Positions 51,151 through 58,922 of a stretch of 64,000 nucleotides of DNA are shown in pieces. Under the pieces are notes generated by a model, which made no database searches, had not been told where the DNA came from, and saw only the letters and a program-made list of their open reading frames with translations. The position numbers were made by a program, and so were the translations under genes. Position 1 is the first letter of the stretch; each line of letters starts with the position of its first letter. Source of the stretch: Proteinivorax tanatarense (GTDB taxonomy: Bacteria; Bacillota; Proteinivoracia; Proteinivoracales; Proteinivoracaceae). The stretch lies in the NCBI RefSeq assembly GCF_040267685.1, contig NZ_CP158367.1:2356001-2420000 (forward strand). Direction: 5' to 3'.

Positions 51151-52620
51151 TTAGGTGCCACAAAATGTTCTATAAGGCTCTTTCCCGGAATATGGCTTAG
51201 TATACTCATCTAGGCTTAGCTGGTAATCAAAAGGACTTGATAGAGCACTAATGAGCTTTTTAGTTAATCTAAAATCCTGATGTTCAACGGCAGCTTTTAA
51301 TGCTTCTTCTACTTTATGGTTTCGAGGAATTATTGATGGATTATTCTTTTCCATTATTTTTTGAGATTCATCTTTAGATTGACACTGATTTGCAATCCTA
51401 GCTCGCCACAGTTTCAACCAGTAATCAAATTCTTTATTTTTTAGGTCAGCAATATCTTCTAGGTTTCCAATGGTCAAAGCCCTAAAGGTATTAGTATAGT
51501 CAGCTTTGCTATACTCCAAAATGTCAAGAAGGTTGTTAATTAAGTCTTTATCTCCACCTTCTAAGTTAAACAAGCCTAACTTCTTTCTCATCCCTGACAT
51601 ATAGCTTTGATAATAATGTTTATTAAATTCTTCTACTGCTTCTTCTGCAAGTTCTTTAGATTTTTTTTCATCTTTACTTAACAACGGTAGTAAAGTCTCT
51701 GCTAGTCTAATCAAGTTCCACTTGGCAATAGAAGGTTGATTACCAAAGGAGTATCGTCCTTGTCTATCTATCGAGCTGAATACTGTATCTATGTCATAGC
51801 GGTCGATAAAGGCACATGGGCCATAATCAATGGTTTCTCCGCATATAGTCATGTTATCTGTATTCATTACACCATGTACAAACCCCGTCAACTGCCATTT
51901 GGCAATTAAAGATGCCTGTCTTTTTACAACTTCTTTAAGCATTGAAAGATAAGGGTTGTTGTCCTGCAATACTTCAGGGAAATGCCTATTTATTGTATAA
52001 TCTGCAAGCACCGTTAAGTCTGTAACCCCTCCCCAATGGGCTGCAAATTGAAACGTTCCAACTCGCAAATGGCTGGAAGCTATTCTTGTCAGAATTGCAC
52101 CAGGTAATAACTTTTCTCTCATAACTTCTTCTCCTGTGCTAACAACGGCTAGACTTCTCGTAGTTTCAATGCCAAGAGCATGCATAGCTTCACTAATAAT
52201 ATATTCTCGCAACATCGGACCTAATGTAGCTCTGCCATCGCCACCTCTTGAGTATGGAGTCCTTCCAGCTCCTTTAAGTTGTATATCCCATTTTGTCCCT
52301 TCAGGGGCAGTCTGTTCACCTATTAATATTGCCCTACCATCACCCAACATTGTAAAGTAACCAAACTGATGGCCAGCATATGCTTGTGCCAAAGGCACCA
52401 CATTTTTAGGTAACCTATTGCCTGCAAAATAATCTGCACCAGTGCAACTCAGCTGTCTGTCATCTAAACCCAAATCTTGAGCTAACTGATTGTTAAAAAC
52501 TATCATTTGTGGAGCTTTGACAGAAGAAGGCTTAAGCTTTGCATAAAACTTTTCTGGTAAGCTTGCATAGGTATTTTCTAAGTTCCATCCTGCGTTTTCT
52601 ATTGTTTTAATGATTGCAAT
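51151..52620 (-). CDS. selO: SelO/YdiU protein adenylyltransferase with an anomalous start
   Basis: SelO is a pseudokinase that transfers AMP to proteins. GDGRAILIGEQ, KGAGRTPYSRGGDGRATLG, SSHLRVGTFQFAA and HGVMNTDNM are conserved, and Cys lies near the C-terminus (TFCGT). The first ATG is at 52506, yet the frame continues upstream for 38 codons encoding ENAGWNLENTYASLPEKFYA, which matches the conserved SelO N-terminus. Between those residues and the TGA at 52621 there is no ATG, GTG or TTG. An ATT at 52620 lies 5 bases after AAGGAG and gives 489 residues, the family length. A one-base loss after an out-of-frame TTG is the alternative. Confidence 0.85.
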   Translation of the reverse strand: MAIIKTIENAGWNLENTYASLPEKFYAKLKPSSVKAPQMIVFNNQLAQDLGLDDRQLSCTGADYFAGNRLPKNVVPLAQAYAGHQFGYFTMLGDGRAILIGEQTAPEGTKWDIQLKGAGRTPYSRGGDGRATLGPMLREYIISEAMHALGIETTRSLAVVSTGEEVMREKLLPGAILTRIASSHLRVGTFQFAAHWGGVTDLTVLADYTINRHFPEVLQDNNPYLSMLKEVVKRQASLIAKWQLTGFVHGVMNTDNMTICGETIDYGPCAFIDRYDIDTVFSSIDRQGRYSFGNQPSIAKWNLIRLAETLLPLLSKDEKKSKELAEEAVEEFNKHYYQSYMSGMRKKLGLFNLEGGDKDLINNLLDILEYSKADYTNTFRALTIGNLEDIADLKNKEFDYWLKLWRARIANQCQSKDESQKIMEKNNPSIIPRNHKVEEALKAAVEHQDFRLTKKLISALSSPFDYQLSLDEYTKPYSGKEPYRTFCGT

Positions 52621-52662: not shown

Positions 52663-54303
52663 CTATATATCATTTCTCTTATGCTTATTTAAATCTATAA
52701 CCTCATCTGCTATGTTTATAAAATCGTGGTCATGGCTTATTATAATTGTTATCCTGCTTAACTTTGTTTCTACTATCAAATCTTTCAATTTATCAACACT
52801 TTCAACATCTAGCGCAGAGCTAGGCTCATCTAAGACTAACAATTCTGGACTTTTAAGAAAATTTCTAGCCAAATTAATTTTTAACTTTTCTCCCCCAGAA
52901 ATATTATTTGAAGCTTCATCTATAATTGTTTCTAATCCATTATCAAATTTTGCAGGATCCAGTTTCAGTTTATTTAATATTAAGCTTAAATTGTCAAAAT
53001 TATACTGCTCTAGACCATATGTAAAATTTTCTATCAATTTACTATTGATTGTTTTAGGTTCTTGCATGCAAACTCCTACAAAGTTTTTCCTAATATAATA
53101 CATATCTAAATTCTTAATTTCATTAGTGTCATAGTGTATTTTACCATCATAGTAATCGTTGTATATACCTAATAACAATTTAATTAAAGTGCTTTTACCA
53201 GTCCCATTGCTACCAATTACACAATAAACCTTACCTTTTTTAAATTTTTGATTAAAGTTACTTATTATTTTCTCAGATTTATTATATGAAAATGCTACAT
53301 TTTCTAATTTTATATTGCTTATGTTAAAAATTTTTTTATTACCGTTTATTTCTTTAGATTCGTCTAGTATTTGCTTTAATCTATCGTAAGAAACTAAGGC
53401 TTTTTGGTATGATTCGCCAAAGTTTAAGAAATAACTTATGCTTCCCATAATCATTGAAAAATAGCTTTTTATAATAGTAAATTCTCCTACACTCATGTTG
53501 CCACGTATTACTTCCCTTCCCCCAAAAAAGAAAATTAGTCCATTTGCTACAAGCATTGTAAATGAATTACTATTGGTGAAAAGTAAAGACAATTTAGTAT
53601 GTGATAGTAAAGATTTAAACATAGATTTAAAACTATTACTAATAACTTCGTGAGCTTCTGTAAAAGTTGCATTTATCTTAACTATATTTACATTTTGCAG
53701 ATGTTGGTTCATTTTAGAAAAAAAAATATTTTGTTTTTCTTTTAAATCATAATTTCGCCTATACAAAGGTTTTCGAAAAATATAGTACAGAAACAGGTAC
53801 AGAGGAAAAACTGGAATTAATATTAAAGTCATTTTAACATTTATAGTAAAAGATATATAAAAAAGAATGATTATGGTTAAAGCATTACTAACTATATTAA
53901 GAAGGTTGTCTAATAAAAAATTAACCACAACACTACTATCATTGTTAATACGATGATTTAAATAGCCACTATTTTTGTTTTCAAAGTACCTAATGGGCAT
54001 TTTTAACAAATGATTTAAAACATCAAAATTCAAGTCAATCATCGCTTTCGTTTGGATCTTTACATTTAAATACCTTTGAGCAAAAGATGAAACCATATTA
54101 AATATGCCAATAGTTATTATTATAAGAGTAATCTTAGTTACGATCTGAAAATCATTAGCTGTTATAAGTATATCTATATAATTCCCAGTTAAATAAGGGA
54201 AAAATATAGCCAGAGCTCTCGAAACGAAATTAAGAAGAATAAAAATTAATAAATAAATTTTATATTTCAAAACATATGTCATGGTAAATTTGATAATTTT
54301 CAT
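52663..54303 (-). CDS. ABC exporter, fused permease/ATPase, in the RiPP cluster
   Basis: 546 residues. Six membrane helices (about 1-300), then an ATPase with Walker A GSNGTGKST, signature ISGGEKLKI and Walker B LLVLDEPSSALD. The protein begins directly with the membrane domain, so the C39 leader-peptidase of bacteriocin exporters is absent. AAAAGGGGGGG precedes the ATG. It lies 417 bases downstream of two Cys-rich precursor genes and is the likely exporter, or alternatively an immunity pump, for the matured peptides. Confidence 0.85.
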   Translation of the reverse strand: MKIIKFTMTYVLKYKIYLLIFILLNFVSRALAIFFPYLTGNYIDILITANDFQIVTKITLIIITIGIFNMVSSFAQRYLNVKIQTKAMIDLNFDVLNHLLKMPIRYFENKNSGYLNHRINNDSSVVVNFLLDNLLNIVSNALTIIILFYISFTINVKMTLILIPVFPLYLFLYYIFRKPLYRRNYDLKEKQNIFFSKMNQHLQNVNIVKINATFTEAHEVISNSFKSMFKSLLSHTKLSLLFTNSNSFTMLVANGLIFFFGGREVIRGNMSVGEFTIIKSYFSMIMGSISYFLNFGESYQKALVSYDRLKQILDESKEINGNKKIFNISNIKLENVAFSYNKSEKIISNFNQKFKKGKVYCVIGSNGTGKSTLIKLLLGIYNDYYDGKIHYDTNEIKNLDMYYIRKNFVGVCMQEPKTINSKLIENFTYGLEQYNFDNLSLILNKLKLDPAKFDNGLETIIDEASNNISGGEKLKINLARNFLKSPELLVLDEPSSALDVESVDKLKDLIVETKLSRITIIISHDHDFINIADEVIDLNKHKRNDI

Positions 54304-54720
54304 ATAACCCCCCCTTTTCCTCTACCAATCGGTTTCATCTGTAAAATTAACTTGCTTATTTTGCTTAAATAATATTTTCGAGCACTTTTAGAAAAAGAAT
54401 TCAATTGGCTACCTTACCACCAAAATTTTATAACTTTTCTACTATTGTTCTCCAAAATCAGGTCTATAAAAACTTTATATAAATACCAAAAGCAAATCCA
54501 AAAGGATTTACTTTTGGCATATTTTTTCTTAATGATTACCTAATTCAATAATAATACACTTGCTTTAGTAACAAATTAATATTTAACCTTACAATTAAAA
54601 TAATAATTTGCAAATCCTTTCTTTCACTTATCTTCTAAAATTTAAGTTTATACTAGATTAAAATAATATTTTCTATCTCCTATAATGGCAAAAGCAAAAT
54701 CTGTGCTACTAAATTAACAT
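54304..54720. other. Intergenic region between exporter and precursor genes
   Basis: 417 bases of very AT-rich sequence with no credible coding frame on either strand. It contains one hairpin (54486-54530). It probably holds a separate promoter for the exporter, but I cannot point to convincing hexamers. Confidence 0.5.
54486..54530. terminator. Hairpin/terminator after the RiPP precursor genes
   Basis: The stem CCAAAAGCAAATCC / GGATTTACTTTTGG (one mismatch) has a 4-base loop. On the plus strand it is followed by six Ts; on the minus strand the tail is only moderately T-rich, so it may terminate the precursor transcript only partly. Confidence 0.6.
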
Positions 54721-54912
54721 TTATTCTGCCAATGGCATTACCTGCGCTGGATAACAAACTTGCCCCCCACAGAATTCGCACTGAGTGCAGCGGTCGTTAC
54801 AAAGTTGACCACCACATCTCGATGAGTCCGAAAAACATCCGCATTCAAACCCATCGTTACAGGTAAAAGTACATAGTTCTTCCATACTATTTCCTTCTAT
54901 CAAATAAGTCAT
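54721..54912 (-). CDS. Cys-rich RiPP precursor peptide 2
   Basis: 63 residues: nine-residue start MTYLIEGNS, a short acidic stretch, then ten cysteines at 14, 18, 24, 26, 33, 38, 42, 45, 48 and 53, and the tail YPAQVMPLAE. CGGQLC and CGGQVC are internal repeats. It is a close paralogue of the peptide 37 bases upstream; leader, Cys spacing and tail are conserved while the loops vary. GGGAGGTGA precedes the ATG. Position behind a radical SAM/SPASM maturase indicates a ribosomally made, post-translationally modified peptide. A metal-binding mini-protein is the alternative. Confidence 0.8.
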   Translation of the reverse strand: MTYLIEGNSMEELCTFTCNDGFECGCFSDSSRCGGQLCNDRCTQCEFCGGQVCYPAQVMPLAE

Positions 54913-54949
54913 TAATTCACCTCCCAGTTTTATTTTACATACGAGAAAA

Positions 54950-55150
54950 TTACTCTTCTACTAATGGCATTACCTGTGCTGGGTAGCAAACTTGACCACC
55001 GCAAAAACCTTCGCAATGATTGCATCGCGTATTGCAAAGTTGACCACCACATTTTGATGCATCAGAAAAACAGCCACACTCAAAATCTGAGCATTCAAAT
55101 TGACTACAAAGTACATCTACTAAGCTATTTCCCTCAATTAAATATGTCAT
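54950..55150 (-). CDS. Cys-rich RiPP precursor peptide 1
   Basis: 66 residues with the same MTYLIEGNS start, ten cysteines (15, 20, 25, 27, 34, 39, 43, 46, 50, 55) and YPAQVMPLVEE tail as its neighbour. The Shine-Dalgarno sequence AAAGGAGGTGA, an essentially perfect match to 16S rRNA, overlaps the last codons and stop of the maturase gene, and the ATG is 3 bases after that stop. This gives strong, coupled translation suited to a peptide needed in excess over its maturase. Where the leader ends cannot be seen; there is no GG cleavage site before the first Cys. Confidence 0.82.
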   Translation of the reverse strand: MTYLIEGNSLVDVLCSQFECSDFECGCFSDASKCGGQLCNTRCNHCEGFCGGQVCYPAQVMPLVEE

Positions 55151-55153
55151 AGT

Positions 55154-56479
55154 TCACCTCCTTTCCACTTTTTCATTATTTAATTCTCTATATTTGTTTA
55201 AAGCTATATTCTTAATATAACCTTCTAAAACATACTTGTAAGAAGTGCATCTATCTACTATATTATCTACTCTTCTTCTAGGGCACCCTCCCATACATAA
55301 CGGTAAAACTTCACAGTCCTTACAGTCCTCATCAATAGTAGGGTCATAAAGTATATATTGGAAAAATTTTTCCAAGTTAATCATTTTGTTCTCAGAAATA
55401 TTACTAATTTTATACTCACTCCTACCCACATCAGACCAACATTTATAAATGTCACCTTTAGGATCAATAACCATTGAATTTAGGTTATCTGCCGTACAAA
55501 CATTAGTTTTAATATATGGGTACTTATAATCTATATTGGGCACGAAATTTACTGCTTGTAGTCTCTCATGAAACTCATACTCAACTTTTGAAAAATCACA
55601 TACTTCTAAACAATTGTTAACGGAATAACAATCATTAGTTGGTTCAATATATCCTGGATATGTTGCTACTGTTTTTTCTAAATTATATTCCTTTATCACC
55701 TCTAAAATTTCTTCTAAACTTTTTATATTTTCTTTATCTATATTAACTCTTAGATTAGTAGAAGGTAGATACTTTTTATTTTCTGACAAGTTTGATAATA
55801 TACGTTCAAATGTTGGGCCTCCATTTTTTAAAGGACGTCTAGAGTTATGTGTTTCACCAGTTCCATCTATAGTAACTTGCATAGCTTTAATATTTAGTTT
55901 TTTTAATTTAAGTAAAGTATCCTTTGTTAAATTATATCCGTTAGTCACTATCATGGCGGAAAACTTGATTTTTTCCCGCTTAACAATTTCCAGTACTTTA
56001 TTAGTTATATTTTCAATAGCTTCCATGGCTAATAATGGTTCTCCTCCATACCATGATATGGATAATTGTTCAATAAATTTTGATTGCTTTTCTATAAATT
56101 TTATAATATTATTTTGTACCTCTTTAGACATATAGCCTTCATTTTTTCCCTTTTCATAACAGTAAGTACAAGCAAAGTTACAATCAAGGGTAGGAGCAAT
56201 AGTCAAGCCTAGTCCTTTAGAAGAATATCTACTAGCAAACATTTTAAATTTAAGTATCTCAAGTTCATTTATATCTGGTTCTATCAAAAACTCCCCTTTT
56301 TGCAGTTCCTTTAATAACTTTGCATCTTCAATTTGCACACCATTTTCAACATATTTTTTTAGTTCTGCGTAATCCTTTTTATTAATTAAAGCCAATGAGT
56401 TTGTTCTAGAATTGTAAGCTATCAATTTACTTGGGTCTTTTTGAAACTCATAGAAAAAATTATAACTTGATTCTTTCAT
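55154..56479 (-). CDS. Radical SAM/SPASM peptide maturase
   Basis: About 441 residues from the ATG at 56479 (GGGAGTG upstream; frame open to 56494). An N-terminal region of about 95 residues resembles the peptide-recognition part of RiPP maturases. The radical SAM cluster motif CNFACTYC has Cys at 105, 109 and 112 (counted from 56494), and SWYGGEPLL is the SAM-binding GGE motif. A C-terminal SPASM domain holds additional Cys: VCTAD, YKCWSDVG, CKDCEVLPLCMGGCPRRR and RCTSYK. Such enzymes form thioether or related links at Cys. It may belong to the clostridial Cys-rich-peptide maturase (CcpM-like) group; this is from memory and unverified. Confidence 0.88.
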   Translation of the reverse strand: MKESSYNFFYEFQKDPSKLIAYNSRTNSLALINKKDYAELKKYVENGVQIEDAKLLKELQKGEFLIEPDINELEILKFKMFASRYSSKGLGLTIAPTLDCNFACTYCYEKGKNEGYMSKEVQNNIIKFIEKQSKFIEQLSISWYGGEPLLAMEAIENITNKVLEIVKREKIKFSAMIVTNGYNLTKDTLLKLKKLNIKAMQVTIDGTGETHNSRRPLKNGGPTFERILSNLSENKKYLPSTNLRVNIDKENIKSLEEILEVIKEYNLEKTVATYPGYIEPTNDCYSVNNCLEVCDFSKVEYEFHERLQAVNFVPNIDYKYPYIKTNVCTADNLNSMVIDPKGDIYKCWSDVGRSEYKISNISENKMINLEKFFQYILYDPTIDEDCKDCEVLPLCMGGCPRRRVDNIVDRCTSYKYVLEGYIKNIALNKYRELNNEKVERR

Positions 56480-56523
56480 ATTTTTCACTCCCATAACTAT
56501 TATTTATTGTAAAAGAATTAATA

Positions 56524-56661
56524 CTATAAATTACTCGTATAGCTAAACCATTCATAGTCTTCATCTTTGTCGGCAATCTCATCATTATGACTTAAGCAAC
56601 AATAAAATTGACAAACAAGTAAAAACGATACTAATGCAAATATAATAAATTTTTTTTTCAC
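56524..56661 (-). CDS. 45-residue secreted-type micro-peptide, candidate pheromone precursor
   Basis: A GTG at 56661, four bases after GGGGGG, opens a 45-residue frame. It reads as a basic start (MKKK), a hydrophobic segment (FIIFALVSFLLVCQFYCC, residues 5-22) and a hydrophilic acidic tail ending WFSYTSNL. The layout is that of PapR/Phr-like pro-pheromones, whose mature peptide is cut from the C-terminus. It is the first gene upstream of the radical SAM gene on the same strand and is divergent from an HTH-TPR regulator. It was too short for routine ORF calling. An alternative is a small membrane or immunity peptide. Confidence 0.65.
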   Translation of the reverse strand: MKKKFIIFALVSFLLVCQFYCCLSHNDEIADKDEDYEWFSYTSNL

Positions 56662-56720
56662 TTTACCCCCCCTTTTTTTTTAAAATAATATTCTTAATAA
56701 ATATATAATATATTATTTAA

Positions 56721-56750
56721 AATATAGAATACGATTTTAATCGGGTTGAA
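56721..56750 (-). promoter_or_regulatory. Candidate promoter and operator of the RiPP operon
   Basis: On the minus strand TTCAAC - 18 bases - TATATT is a plausible promoter 60 bases before the micro-peptide start. The inverted repeat CGATT-TT-AATCG (56732-56743) lies in its spacer, the place expected for a regulator of the divergent gene to bind. The surrounding DNA is AT-rich, so chance matches are possible. Confidence 0.4.
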
Positions 56751-56783
56751 AAAAATATATTTTATGTTATGGAGGAATTTCAT

Positions 56784-57719
56784 GTGAATTACCACTTAAA
56801 ACTTTTTGGTGAAAAAGTAAAGTCAATCAGAAAAGAACTTAGAATTTCCCAAAGAGCCATATCTGAACAAACAGGAGTTAACATTGATACTATTCGTAAG
56901 ATAGAAAAAGGTATGGTTATACCTCGGCTTGATACGTTAGAAATTTTATCAACTGTATTAAAGCAAGATATAAGCAAATTATTTCTGGATTATCGGCTAG
57001 ATAATCAGGCTGCATTTAAAGAAGTTAAAGCTAAACTAGAATATAAGTTGAATAATAATAAGTATGAAGACCTATATTTAGAACGGGAACAACTTAAAAG
57101 GATAAAATTTTCTACAAAATCCGATTACTACCATCTTTTGATAACACAACTATTTTTTTTTGTTGATGCTATAATTTTATATAAAGTAGAAAATAAACCT
57201 GAAAAAGCTTATAAAAAGTTAATTAATTCATTAAAGGTAACTAACCAAAACTTTACTTTGGCAGATTATCAAATTTTTATCTACTCCTCTATGGAATTAA
57301 GAATTTTAATGAGTATTGGCTTCATTTTAAATAGTTTAAATGAGTCAAATAAGTACTTAGAAATTTTAGAGTTTTGCATGGAAAGGGTAGAAGTAGAAAG
57401 TTCGTTACATCCAAAATTGTGCCATAACCTATCCACAGCCTATAAAAGAAATAAGCAATATGAAAAAGCTCTTAGGTATTCAAATATAGGTATCGAATGT
57501 TGCAAAAAAAGTACTAATGTTACAGGTCTTCATATCCTTTATTACGGTAAAGGCGTTGTTGAATATTATTTAAATGATCCTAAATATATAAAATCAATAA
57601 AAACTGCATTATTATTATGTGACATCCTTGAACAAGAAAAGTTTAAAAATAAAATATTAAAAAACTGTAAAGATATACTTAAGTGCAAATATGAATTTGA
57701 AAACTTTTCTATTAAATGA
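56784..57719 (+). CDS. XRE-type HTH regulator with TPR-like C-terminal domain
   Basis: About 311 residues from a GTG at 56784 that follows TGGAGGA by 7 bases; an ATG at 56769 overlaps the ribosome binding site. A helix-turn-helix (IRKELRISQRAISEQTGVN and IRKIEKGMVIP) occupies about 10-65 and is followed by an all-helical region with TPR-like repeats, for example LSTAYKRNKQYEKALRYSNIG near residue 220. Size and layout match the RRNPP regulators (PlcR, PrgX, Rgg), which bind short imported peptides. It is divergent from the micro-peptide/maturase operon and is its probable regulator. Confidence 0.85.
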   Translation: MNYHLKLFGEKVKSIRKELRISQRAISEQTGVNIDTIRKIEKGMVIPRLDTLEILSTVLKQDISKLFLDYRLDNQAAFKEVKAKLEYKLNNNKYEDLYLEREQLKRIKFSTKSDYYHLLITQLFFFVDAIILYKVENKPEKAYKKLINSLKVTNQNFTLADYQIFIYSSMELRILMSIGFILNSLNESNKYLEILEFCMERVEVESSLHPKLCHNLSTAYKRNKQYEKALRYSNIGIECCKKSTNVTGLHILYYGKGVVEYYLNDPKYIKSIKTALLLCDILEQEKFKNKILKNCKDILKCKYEFENFSIK

Positions 57720-57784: not shown

Positions 57785-58375
57785 TTATTTGATTCCTATA
57801 ACCACAAACATCTGTTCAGTATCTATTTTTTTTACTATATCCAATCCCGCTTTGTGATAATATTGTTTAATCACTGTAAAATCTGGAAGATTATCTTCTT
57901 TTACAGCTTCTCCTTTGCTTTTATGTAGATTATTTATTGCCTCTCTACTCTGAGAATGGCAAATCACTAACTTTCCCCCATTACTTAATTTAGACGCTAG
58001 CAATTTTACAGCTTGTTCTTTGTTTTGAAAGTGGGGAAACATTGAATAGCAAATAATATGGTCGTGCTCATTTTTATCTTCTTTAATTTTAAGAACATCA
58101 TCACACACAAATTCCACGTTGTCATAGTTATATTTTTTTTGAGCAACTTCTATCATTTTGTCGGCTATGTCTATAGCTTTAACATTACCGCTTAAACCTA
58201 CTTTTTTTGATAAAATGGGCACTAACACACCGGTACCAGTACCTACATCTAGAATTTTATCACCTTTTTTTATTTCTAATAAATCTAGAATATACTCCAC
58301 CTTATTCATGTCATGATTACATTTAACGTCCCATGAGCTTGCCATGCTGTTAAAAAATTCTTTTTGAGACTTCAT
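57785..58375 (-). CDS. Class I SAM-dependent methyltransferase
   Basis: About 196 residues from the ATG at 58375, which follows AGGGGTG; the frame to 58411 overlaps the upstream gene. Motif I is ILDVGTGTGVLVPIL (near 55 of the long frame), with AIDIADKMIEVAQKKY and FVCDDVLKIK as motifs II-III. The substrate is not evident. It is the last gene in an operon with an ECF S-component and hypA, 10 bases after the former. Confidence 0.85.
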   Translation of the reverse strand: MKSQKEFFNSMASSWDVKCNHDMNKVEYILDLLEIKKGDKILDVGTGTGVLVPILSKKVGLSGNVKAIDIADKMIEVAQKKYNYDNVEFVCDDVLKIKEDKNEHDHIICYSMFPHFQNKEQAVKLLASKLSNGGKLVICHSQSREAINNLHKSKGEAVKEDNLPDFTVIKQYYHKAGLDIVKKIDTEQMFVVIGIK

Positions 58376-58385
58376 ATTAACACCC

Positions 58386-58922
58386 CTAAGAAGCTTGTTG
58401 AACATTATCACTGAAATATTTATTTACTGCAAAAACAATTGCAGGAATAAATATCAGTTGTATAATGATACCAGGTATCCCTGTGGCAACTGCTCCTTTA
58501 ATAAAAATTATCGGACCAGGTAGTTGAGTAGTAAATAGGGTTGTCAAAAACCATACCATTACTCCCGCTACAACTCTACCACAAAACATACTAACTATAA
58601 GTGCTATATAAACATTAAGCTGATACTTTCGATAAATAAGACTTGCCACAGCTGCATATGTAGCCAATTCAAAAATCATTATTGGCAACATAGGAAATGC
58701 TGGAGGCATACCCGTTATAAAAGAACTGAGCATCGGAGTTAAAGCACCAACCATCAAGGCAAAAGGAATGCTTAAAAAAAAGCCTGCCAGCAACACTGGA
58801 ATATGCATAGGTAAAAAAACTGGCCCACCTCCACCTGCTGCATGAAACACCATTGGTAGTATCACCCCAACAGATATAAGCAGTCCAGAAAGTGTCAGTT
58901 GTTTTGAAATAGGTTTCTTCAC
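58386..58922 (-). CDS. ECF transporter substrate-binding (S) component
   Basis: 178 residues with about six hydrophobic helices. The FLPMHIPVLLAGFFLSIPFALMVG region (described in blocks near 38-60) and SSFITGMPPAFPMLP near 67-81 are characteristic of a group of energy-coupling-factor S subunits. It has no ATPase or T-component of its own, so it would use a shared ECF module. The ligand is unknown. CblT-type subunits for benzimidazole/alpha-ribazole have a similar look, and cobT is in the window, but this link is speculative. Confidence 0.75.
   Translation of the reverse strand: MKKPISKQLTLSGLLISVGVILPMVFHAAGGGGPVFLPMHIPVLLAGFFLSIPFALMVGALTPMLSSFITGMPPAFPMLPIMIFELATYAAVASLIYRKYQLNVYIALIVSMFCGRVVAGVMVWFLTTLFTTQLPGPIIFIKGAVATGIPGIIIQLIFIPAIVFAVNKYFSDNVQQAS

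Follow-up and report, generated by a model that had tools for sequence, protein, structure and literature searches.

What do two small peptides with ten cysteines each, encoded directly behind a radical S-adenosylmethionine (SAM)/SPASM enzyme, produce in Proteinivorax tanatarense, and what controls them? The genes in question lie at positions 52663-57719 of a 64,000-nucleotide stretch of contig NZ_CP158367.1 (2,356,001 to 2,420,000 of the forward strand), the whole of which is referred to here as the window. Given the genes present, the selection acting on both peptides, the family and domains of the enzyme, the conserved neighbourhood and the PlcR-like fold of the regulator, all obtained by computation, we consider it probable that the locus is a quorum-sensing-controlled operon for a ribosomally synthesized and post-translationally modified peptide (RiPP), in which a switch of PlcR/PapR type would drive a thioether product of sactipeptide or ranthipeptide-like type.

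Precursor peptides

Transcription on the minus strand runs from the maturase through the two precursors and a 417-bp gap to the exporter. Precursor B (54950-55150, minus strand; 66 aa) starts 3 bp beyond the end of the maturase gene behind the ribosome site AAAGGAGGTGA, carries the leader MTYLIEGNS and ends in the tail CYPAQVMPLVEE, while precursor A (54721-54912, minus strand; 63 aa; ribosome site GGGAGGTGA) is 81% identical to it. The initial annotation had described a candidate RiPP cluster with paralogous ten-Cys peptides of 63 and 66 residues placed between a radical SAM/SPASM gene, which they directly follow, and an ATP-binding cassette (ABC) exporter, and with a divergent regulator of helix-turn-helix (HTH) and tetratricopeptide repeat (TPR) type. 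Gene positions and cysteine counts confirm this arrangement, all five genes of the candidate cluster being found at the same places when the coordinates were rechecked.

Each precursor has exactly ten Cys, and all ten align between the paralogues. These are the only open reading frames (ORFs) of 40-100 aa in the window with ten Cys, the next highest having 7, and 3,995 ORFs of this size from Markov-simulated sequence contained 8 at most. Over 62 codons, with all ten Cys kept, the nonsynonymous divergence (Ka) between A and B is 0.12 against a synonymous divergence (Ks) of about 2.6, which is near saturation, and the protein sequence is therefore under selection. Judged from these sequence comparisons, the precursors are real genes, that is, old, translated and conserved duplicates; a search of the whole genome found these two copies only. 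They match no NCBIfam or Pfam family, metallothionein included, and gave no match at E<=1 to TIGR04333, the Clo7bot peptide model, which did detect a positive control (43 bits, cut-off 31). A PDB sequence search with the precursors found nothing, and plasmid sequences held no precursor match.

Relatives were collected by an alignment-based scan of public genomes, which gave 80 loci; a scan with a single sequence had found nothing. Genome G063 encodes three intact precursors, and a truncated fourth copy lies downstream of its exporter (L020 6687-6779). Their likeliest starts give MQMLVEGTELEHDTECFINC... (MQMLVEGTEL) and align with the window leader, and two of their tails, ...CKAAQVSPYDD and ...CGGAQISPTDD, align with ...CYPAQVMPL of the window. 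Seven Cys, the leader L-x-E-G and the tail P are common to all five aligned precursors, and few other core residues are conserved. The precursor of genome G001, MKYLINGSDPNN... (MKYLINGSD), has fewer Cys. Across the maturase group to which the window belongs the leader reads M-x-[YM]-L-[IV]-[EN]-G, replacing the usual M-x-[YFW]-[LIV]-x-x-P, and a tag with a final G is the mark of this group; the tag ends in P in 69 of the 81 tag-bearing peptides of the 80 loci. Cys-bearing precursors are present through most of the maturase clade, and proline-bearing tails (C-x-P-x-x-x-P like) recur by eye in other members, for example L042 and L034. When the 80 loci were scanned for starts of the type M-x(1-2)-[YFWM]-[LIVM]-x-x-[PGAKN], tag-bearing peptides with at least three Cys occurred at 3.4 per 10 kb within 1.6 kb of a maturase on the same strand and at 0.17 elsewhere, a difference of about 20-fold that is descriptive, because the pattern was defined with the data already in view.

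The maturase and its lineage

The maturase (55154-56494, minus strand; 446 aa) matches the SPASM model TIGR04085 at 66.9 bits (cut-off 27). Its radical SAM motif CxxxCxxC (Cys 105/109/112) and all seven SPASM Cys (333/352/391/394/400/404/416) are invariant in an alignment of 22 sequences. In the predicted model (mean pLDDT, the predicted local distance difference test, 92) the barrel and SPASM region are preceded by a domain at residues 9-92 with three strands followed by three helices (b-b-b-a-a-a), which by this predicted fold is like a RiPP recognition element (RRE). The best PDB match is CteB, the maturase of the SCIFF peptide CteA (thermocellin), aligned over residues 9-432 with Z 28, a root-mean-square deviation of 4.0 and 388 residues aligned; this is the best solved structure for the window maturase including the N-terminal domain. 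The anaerobic sulfatase-maturating enzyme anSME is close over the barrel and SPASM region (Z 27), with an alignment that begins only at residue 93. Since CteB forms thioethers, the match supports thioether chemistry here.

None of the curated NCBIfam models assigns the maturase to a named family. It scores below the cut-off of Clo7bot TIGR04334 (337 of 600 bits), TIGR04463 (271 of 525), CefB (220 of 600), FlmE/OhkG (223 of 500), PapB (148 of 340), CcpM (100 of 500), SCIFF (100 of 425) and anSME (102 of 349). The RiPP model search proposed in the initial annotation thus places neither enzyme nor precursors in a known family; the departure from the SCIFF pattern seen there is borne out, and the relation to CcpM/CLI_3235-class peptides that it had thought possible is not, given the CcpM score. 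Two findings had been named that would speak against a modified peptide, a maturase of a non-peptide clade such as anSME, or peptides of a metallothionein or ferredoxin-like family occurring apart from radical SAM enzymes. Neither was encountered, because the maturase falls in a peptide-maturase clade and relatives of the precursors were found only beside a maturase. The peptide family is distinct at the level of sequence, its modification being predicted, and the word "new" is right for the family but not for the kind, as SPASM systems with short leaders are widespread.

Of the groups described so far Clo7bot is the nearest; the literature collection searched contained no paper on it or on its model numbers. 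Its SPASM maturases agree with the window enzyme in length and layout, both occur in Bacillota, and its peptides are likewise short and Cys-rich and begin directly with a tag, of MKYIVEP type in Clo7bot; the window peptides differ in their length, some 1.5 to 2 times that of the Clo7bot peptides, in their ten Cys and in a tag ending in G rather than P. A tree of 56 maturases places the enzyme of the window in a group of four with L029, G063 and G001 (support 98/97), which is nested in a 22-row clade (97/87). This is separate from a 12-row clade (100/99) that holds the Clo7bot enzymes L061 and L049, which reach 772 and 588 bits with TIGR04334. The G001 row joins, for the tree only, the two matched halves of an interrupted gene. 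CteA/CteB resembles the window in its Cys-rich precursor as well as in structure, but the maturases are only 18% identical in sequence, and a SCIFF-maturase-like enzyme, recognized by eye, is encoded elsewhere in the genome (L109). A further peptide-maturase-like SPASM protein of the same genome is at L111. The ranthipeptide pair PapA/PapB likewise combines a Cys-rich precursor with a SPASM maturase, although the window precursors are without the regular C-X3-D/E repeats of PapA.

Close maturases were found in 13 of 398 genomes of the phylum, the window's own included, and most named relatives of the window enzyme belong to Bacillota. A scan of plasmids found only distant maturases of Clo7bot/TIGR04463 type, and a scan of viral contigs found none. 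The closest enzyme, at 56-57% identity, is that of L029, a locus which has no precursor and no exporter and whose regulator is broken into pieces, and which we read as decaying; the G063 maturase is 48-49% identical. G001 keeps the order of the window, with regulator, propeptide, maturase, peptide and exporter; an IS3-like insertion sequence with two ORFs interrupts its maturase (L019 8964-12122, equivalent to G001:C1:644963-648121). The other genome of the genus, G004, has no close maturase and no precursors; its interval between SelO and hypA contains other genes, among them an insertion sequence (L128 6715-8276) resembling the one that splits the G001 maturase. Missing from G004 and decaying in L029, the locus behaves like an accessory trait that is readily lost, which is what one would expect if its peptide served in competition or signalling.

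Exporter, regulator and candidate pheromone

The exporter (52663-54303, minus strand; 546 aa) has clear ABC_membrane and ABC_tran domains in Pfam and no matched peptidase domain, C39 included. It is 56, 47, 39 and 38% identical to exporters beside maturases in G063, L034, G001 and G312, respectively, and 23-32% identical to the other exporters compared. The maturase-adjoining exporters being the nearest of those compared, exporter and maturase, which co-occur in five lineages, travel together. In G312 three maturase paralogues and an exporter share one stretch (L021 6536-14108), together with separate short peptides beginning MKFIVKPKPV... and MRFIFNASEN...

The divergent regulator (56769-57719, plus strand; 316 aa) combines a Cro/CI-type HTH (Pfam HTH_3, 35.9 bits) with helical, TPR-like repeats. 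Helical repeats can give high Z scores by chance. The best match of its predicted model is PlcR-PapR over nearly the full length (Foldseek E 2.3e-7, VIA Z 17.4), which stands above unrelated TPR rows and includes the HTH; ComR comes next by Foldseek. With its length, HTH_3 domain and modelled helical repeats it appears to be a receptor of the RRNPP family, for which 250-500 aa, an HTH and a C-terminal TPR fold are characteristic. The regulator of G001, at the same place, is 44% identical, and homologues were found in two of 90 other loci, G001 and L029.

Between regulator and maturase lies a 45-aa ORF (56524-56661, minus strand) that went unreported in the initial annotation. This candidate signal propeptide, MKKKFIIFALVSFLLVCQFYCCLSHNDEIADKDEDYEWFSYTSNL, begins with GTG behind the ribosome site AAAGGGGGGG; its N-terminus is basic, its core hydrophobic (15-residue hydropathy up to 2.7) and its tail acidic and aromatic. 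Such an ORF occurs in all three regulator-bearing loci (window, G001 and L029), in the corresponding position and orientation, behind a ribosome site and with a like layout of charge and hydrophobicity. The length of the window ORF and its distance from the regulator (107 bp) fit the published RRNPP signature of an adjacent propeptide of 10-100 aa within 400 bp (PMC10075063). The earlier description of a peptide-type regulator is supported by both the PlcR-like fold and this candidate cognate peptide.

The 107-bp divergent promoter region (56662-56768) shares with G001, imperfectly, the stretch TCAACC..ATTAAA..GTATT, and in the window it contains a short inverted repeat, CGATT-AA-AATCG. An operator search there found weak, AT-rich repeats only, and the repeat seen by eye is weakly suggested as a possible operator. 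Runs of seven G at about 56668-56674 and 54307-54313 form the apparent ribosome sites of propeptide and exporter, and their length could vary. A 7-pair hairpin with a T-rich tail (54498-54517, minus strand) in the gap between precursors and exporter may be a partial terminator or a processing site. Rfam gave no match anywhere over the locus.

Outside the cluster, a methyltransferase gene and a membrane gene resembling an energy-coupling factor (ECF) transporter (57785-58922) separate it from hypA; a search of four relatives for the membrane gene was negative, but it had no positive control and so shows little. On the other side, the frame of SelO, a protein adenylyltransferase-like gene (51151-52506, minus strand), runs on upstream of its listed ATG (52507-52620, IENAGWNLENTYASLPEKFY...). 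This extension has no in-frame ATG, GTG or TTG, and a TTG behind a ribosome site is out of frame. SelO starts are intact in G004 and G001; the window gene has either a non-standard start or a frameshift.

Proposed switch, alternatives and implications

In the system we propose, the propeptide would be secreted and trimmed, and its C-terminal fragment would re-enter cells through an oligopeptide permease and bind the PlcR-like regulator. The regulator would then activate the divergent promoter at high cell density, switching on the propeptide itself, the maturase and both precursors, with the exporter expressed by read-through or from its own promoter. The maturase may recognize the short leader MTYLIEG through its RRE-like domain and join Cys sulfurs to carbons of other residues; thioethers are the likeliest links given the Cys content and the CteB match, sactipeptide and ranthipeptide types being indistinguishable from sequence. 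The exporter would carry the product out, and because it has no C39 domain any removal of the leader would fall to a protease outside the cluster. Most likely the product is secreted as an antagonist or a signalling peptide.

Streptococci are established to control radical SAM RiPPs through Rgg/SHP pheromones (PMC13361665, PMC8092268), and it is from the same logic that we suggest pheromone control here. The operons for streptide and tryglysin similarly place a peptide pheromone and an RRNPP regulator beside the RiPP genes, but the window receptor matches no Rgg model and folds most like PlcR and ComR, its propeptide is longer and looks Sec-type, and the precursors are unrelated. PlcR-PapR of the Bacillus cereus group shares the receptor fold, with a short secreted propeptide (as predicted here) encoded beside the receptor, although the receptors are only about 20% identical and the window receptor precedes a RiPP operon whose control is deduced from position. 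To our knowledge, no pairing of a PlcR/PapR-type pheromone with a radical SAM RiPP has been described outside the streptococcal Rgg/SHP systems.

Several observations weigh against the proposed switch and its product. Matches of the regulator to the TPR models of Pfam are weak (E 0.02), and its assignment to the RRNPP family relies on a fold model of middling confidence (mean pLDDT 73) built from an alignment of three rows. G063 has no regulator at its locus, and control by it is thus not universal. The propeptide starts with GTG, is weakly conserved (34-35% identity among three sequences) with a C-terminus that differs between relatives, and is predicted to be secreted from its basic, hydrophobic N-terminus. 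The gap and hairpin make co-transcription of the exporter uncertain, and SPASM enzymes also make epimers, cyclophanes, C-C links and cyclopropylglycine.

Some of these points could be accommodated if the HTH-TPR protein regulated without a diffusible peptide, the 45-aa ORF being a chance ORF or small membrane protein; this overlaps with our proposal on the RiPP part, and the weak conservation and differing C-termini would fit it. We regard it as unlikely, as the ORF recurs with its ribosome site and layout in every locus that has the regulator, variable C-termini are expected of pherotypes and the closest folds of the regulator are peptide receptors. Less plausible still is an operon of the same make-up with other chemistry (C-C or C-O cross-links, epimers or cyclopropylglycine), in which the Cys would pair as disulfides once the product is secreted. 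The fold matches of the maturase include TigE and SuiB, enzymes with a different chemistry, and the acidic acceptor residues of the precursors are irregular, in contrast to the fixed C-X3-D/E repeat of PapA (PMC9413430); yet it is the seven Cys that are conserved between window and G063 peptides, with little else in the core, Cys-bearing precursors extend through most of the clade, and CteB is the best structural match. It seems very improbable that the peptides stay unmodified and act as metal-binding or ferredoxin-like proteins, with a SPASM gene beside them that is an unrelated neighbour. CxxC/CxxxC spacing is common in Fe-S proteins, and the precursor model weakly matches a 197-aa heterodisulfide-reductase subunit C-like Fe-S protein in four genomes (E 2e-4 to 6e-4), but these matches look like Cys spacing alone and were rejected as noise, every full-length precursor relative adjoins a maturase, and metallothionein models of Pfam and NCBIfam do not match.

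We therefore return to the pheromone-controlled thioether operon as the preferred account. Only tentatively do we go further and suggest a new RiPP family marked by the M-x-[YM]-L-[IV]-[EN]-G tag, a proline-bearing tail of AQ-[VI]-x-P type, a dense thioether network and a PlcR/PapR-type pheromone switch. The locus adds a branch of maturases and precursors without any curated family model, and its ten-Cys precursors could yield a heavily bridged peptide. The tie to a likely pheromone-receptor pair offers a practical route to inducing production and finding the role of the product. As the short tag pattern adjoins maturases in many phyla, one biochemical result here would help to read a large and mostly unstudied group.

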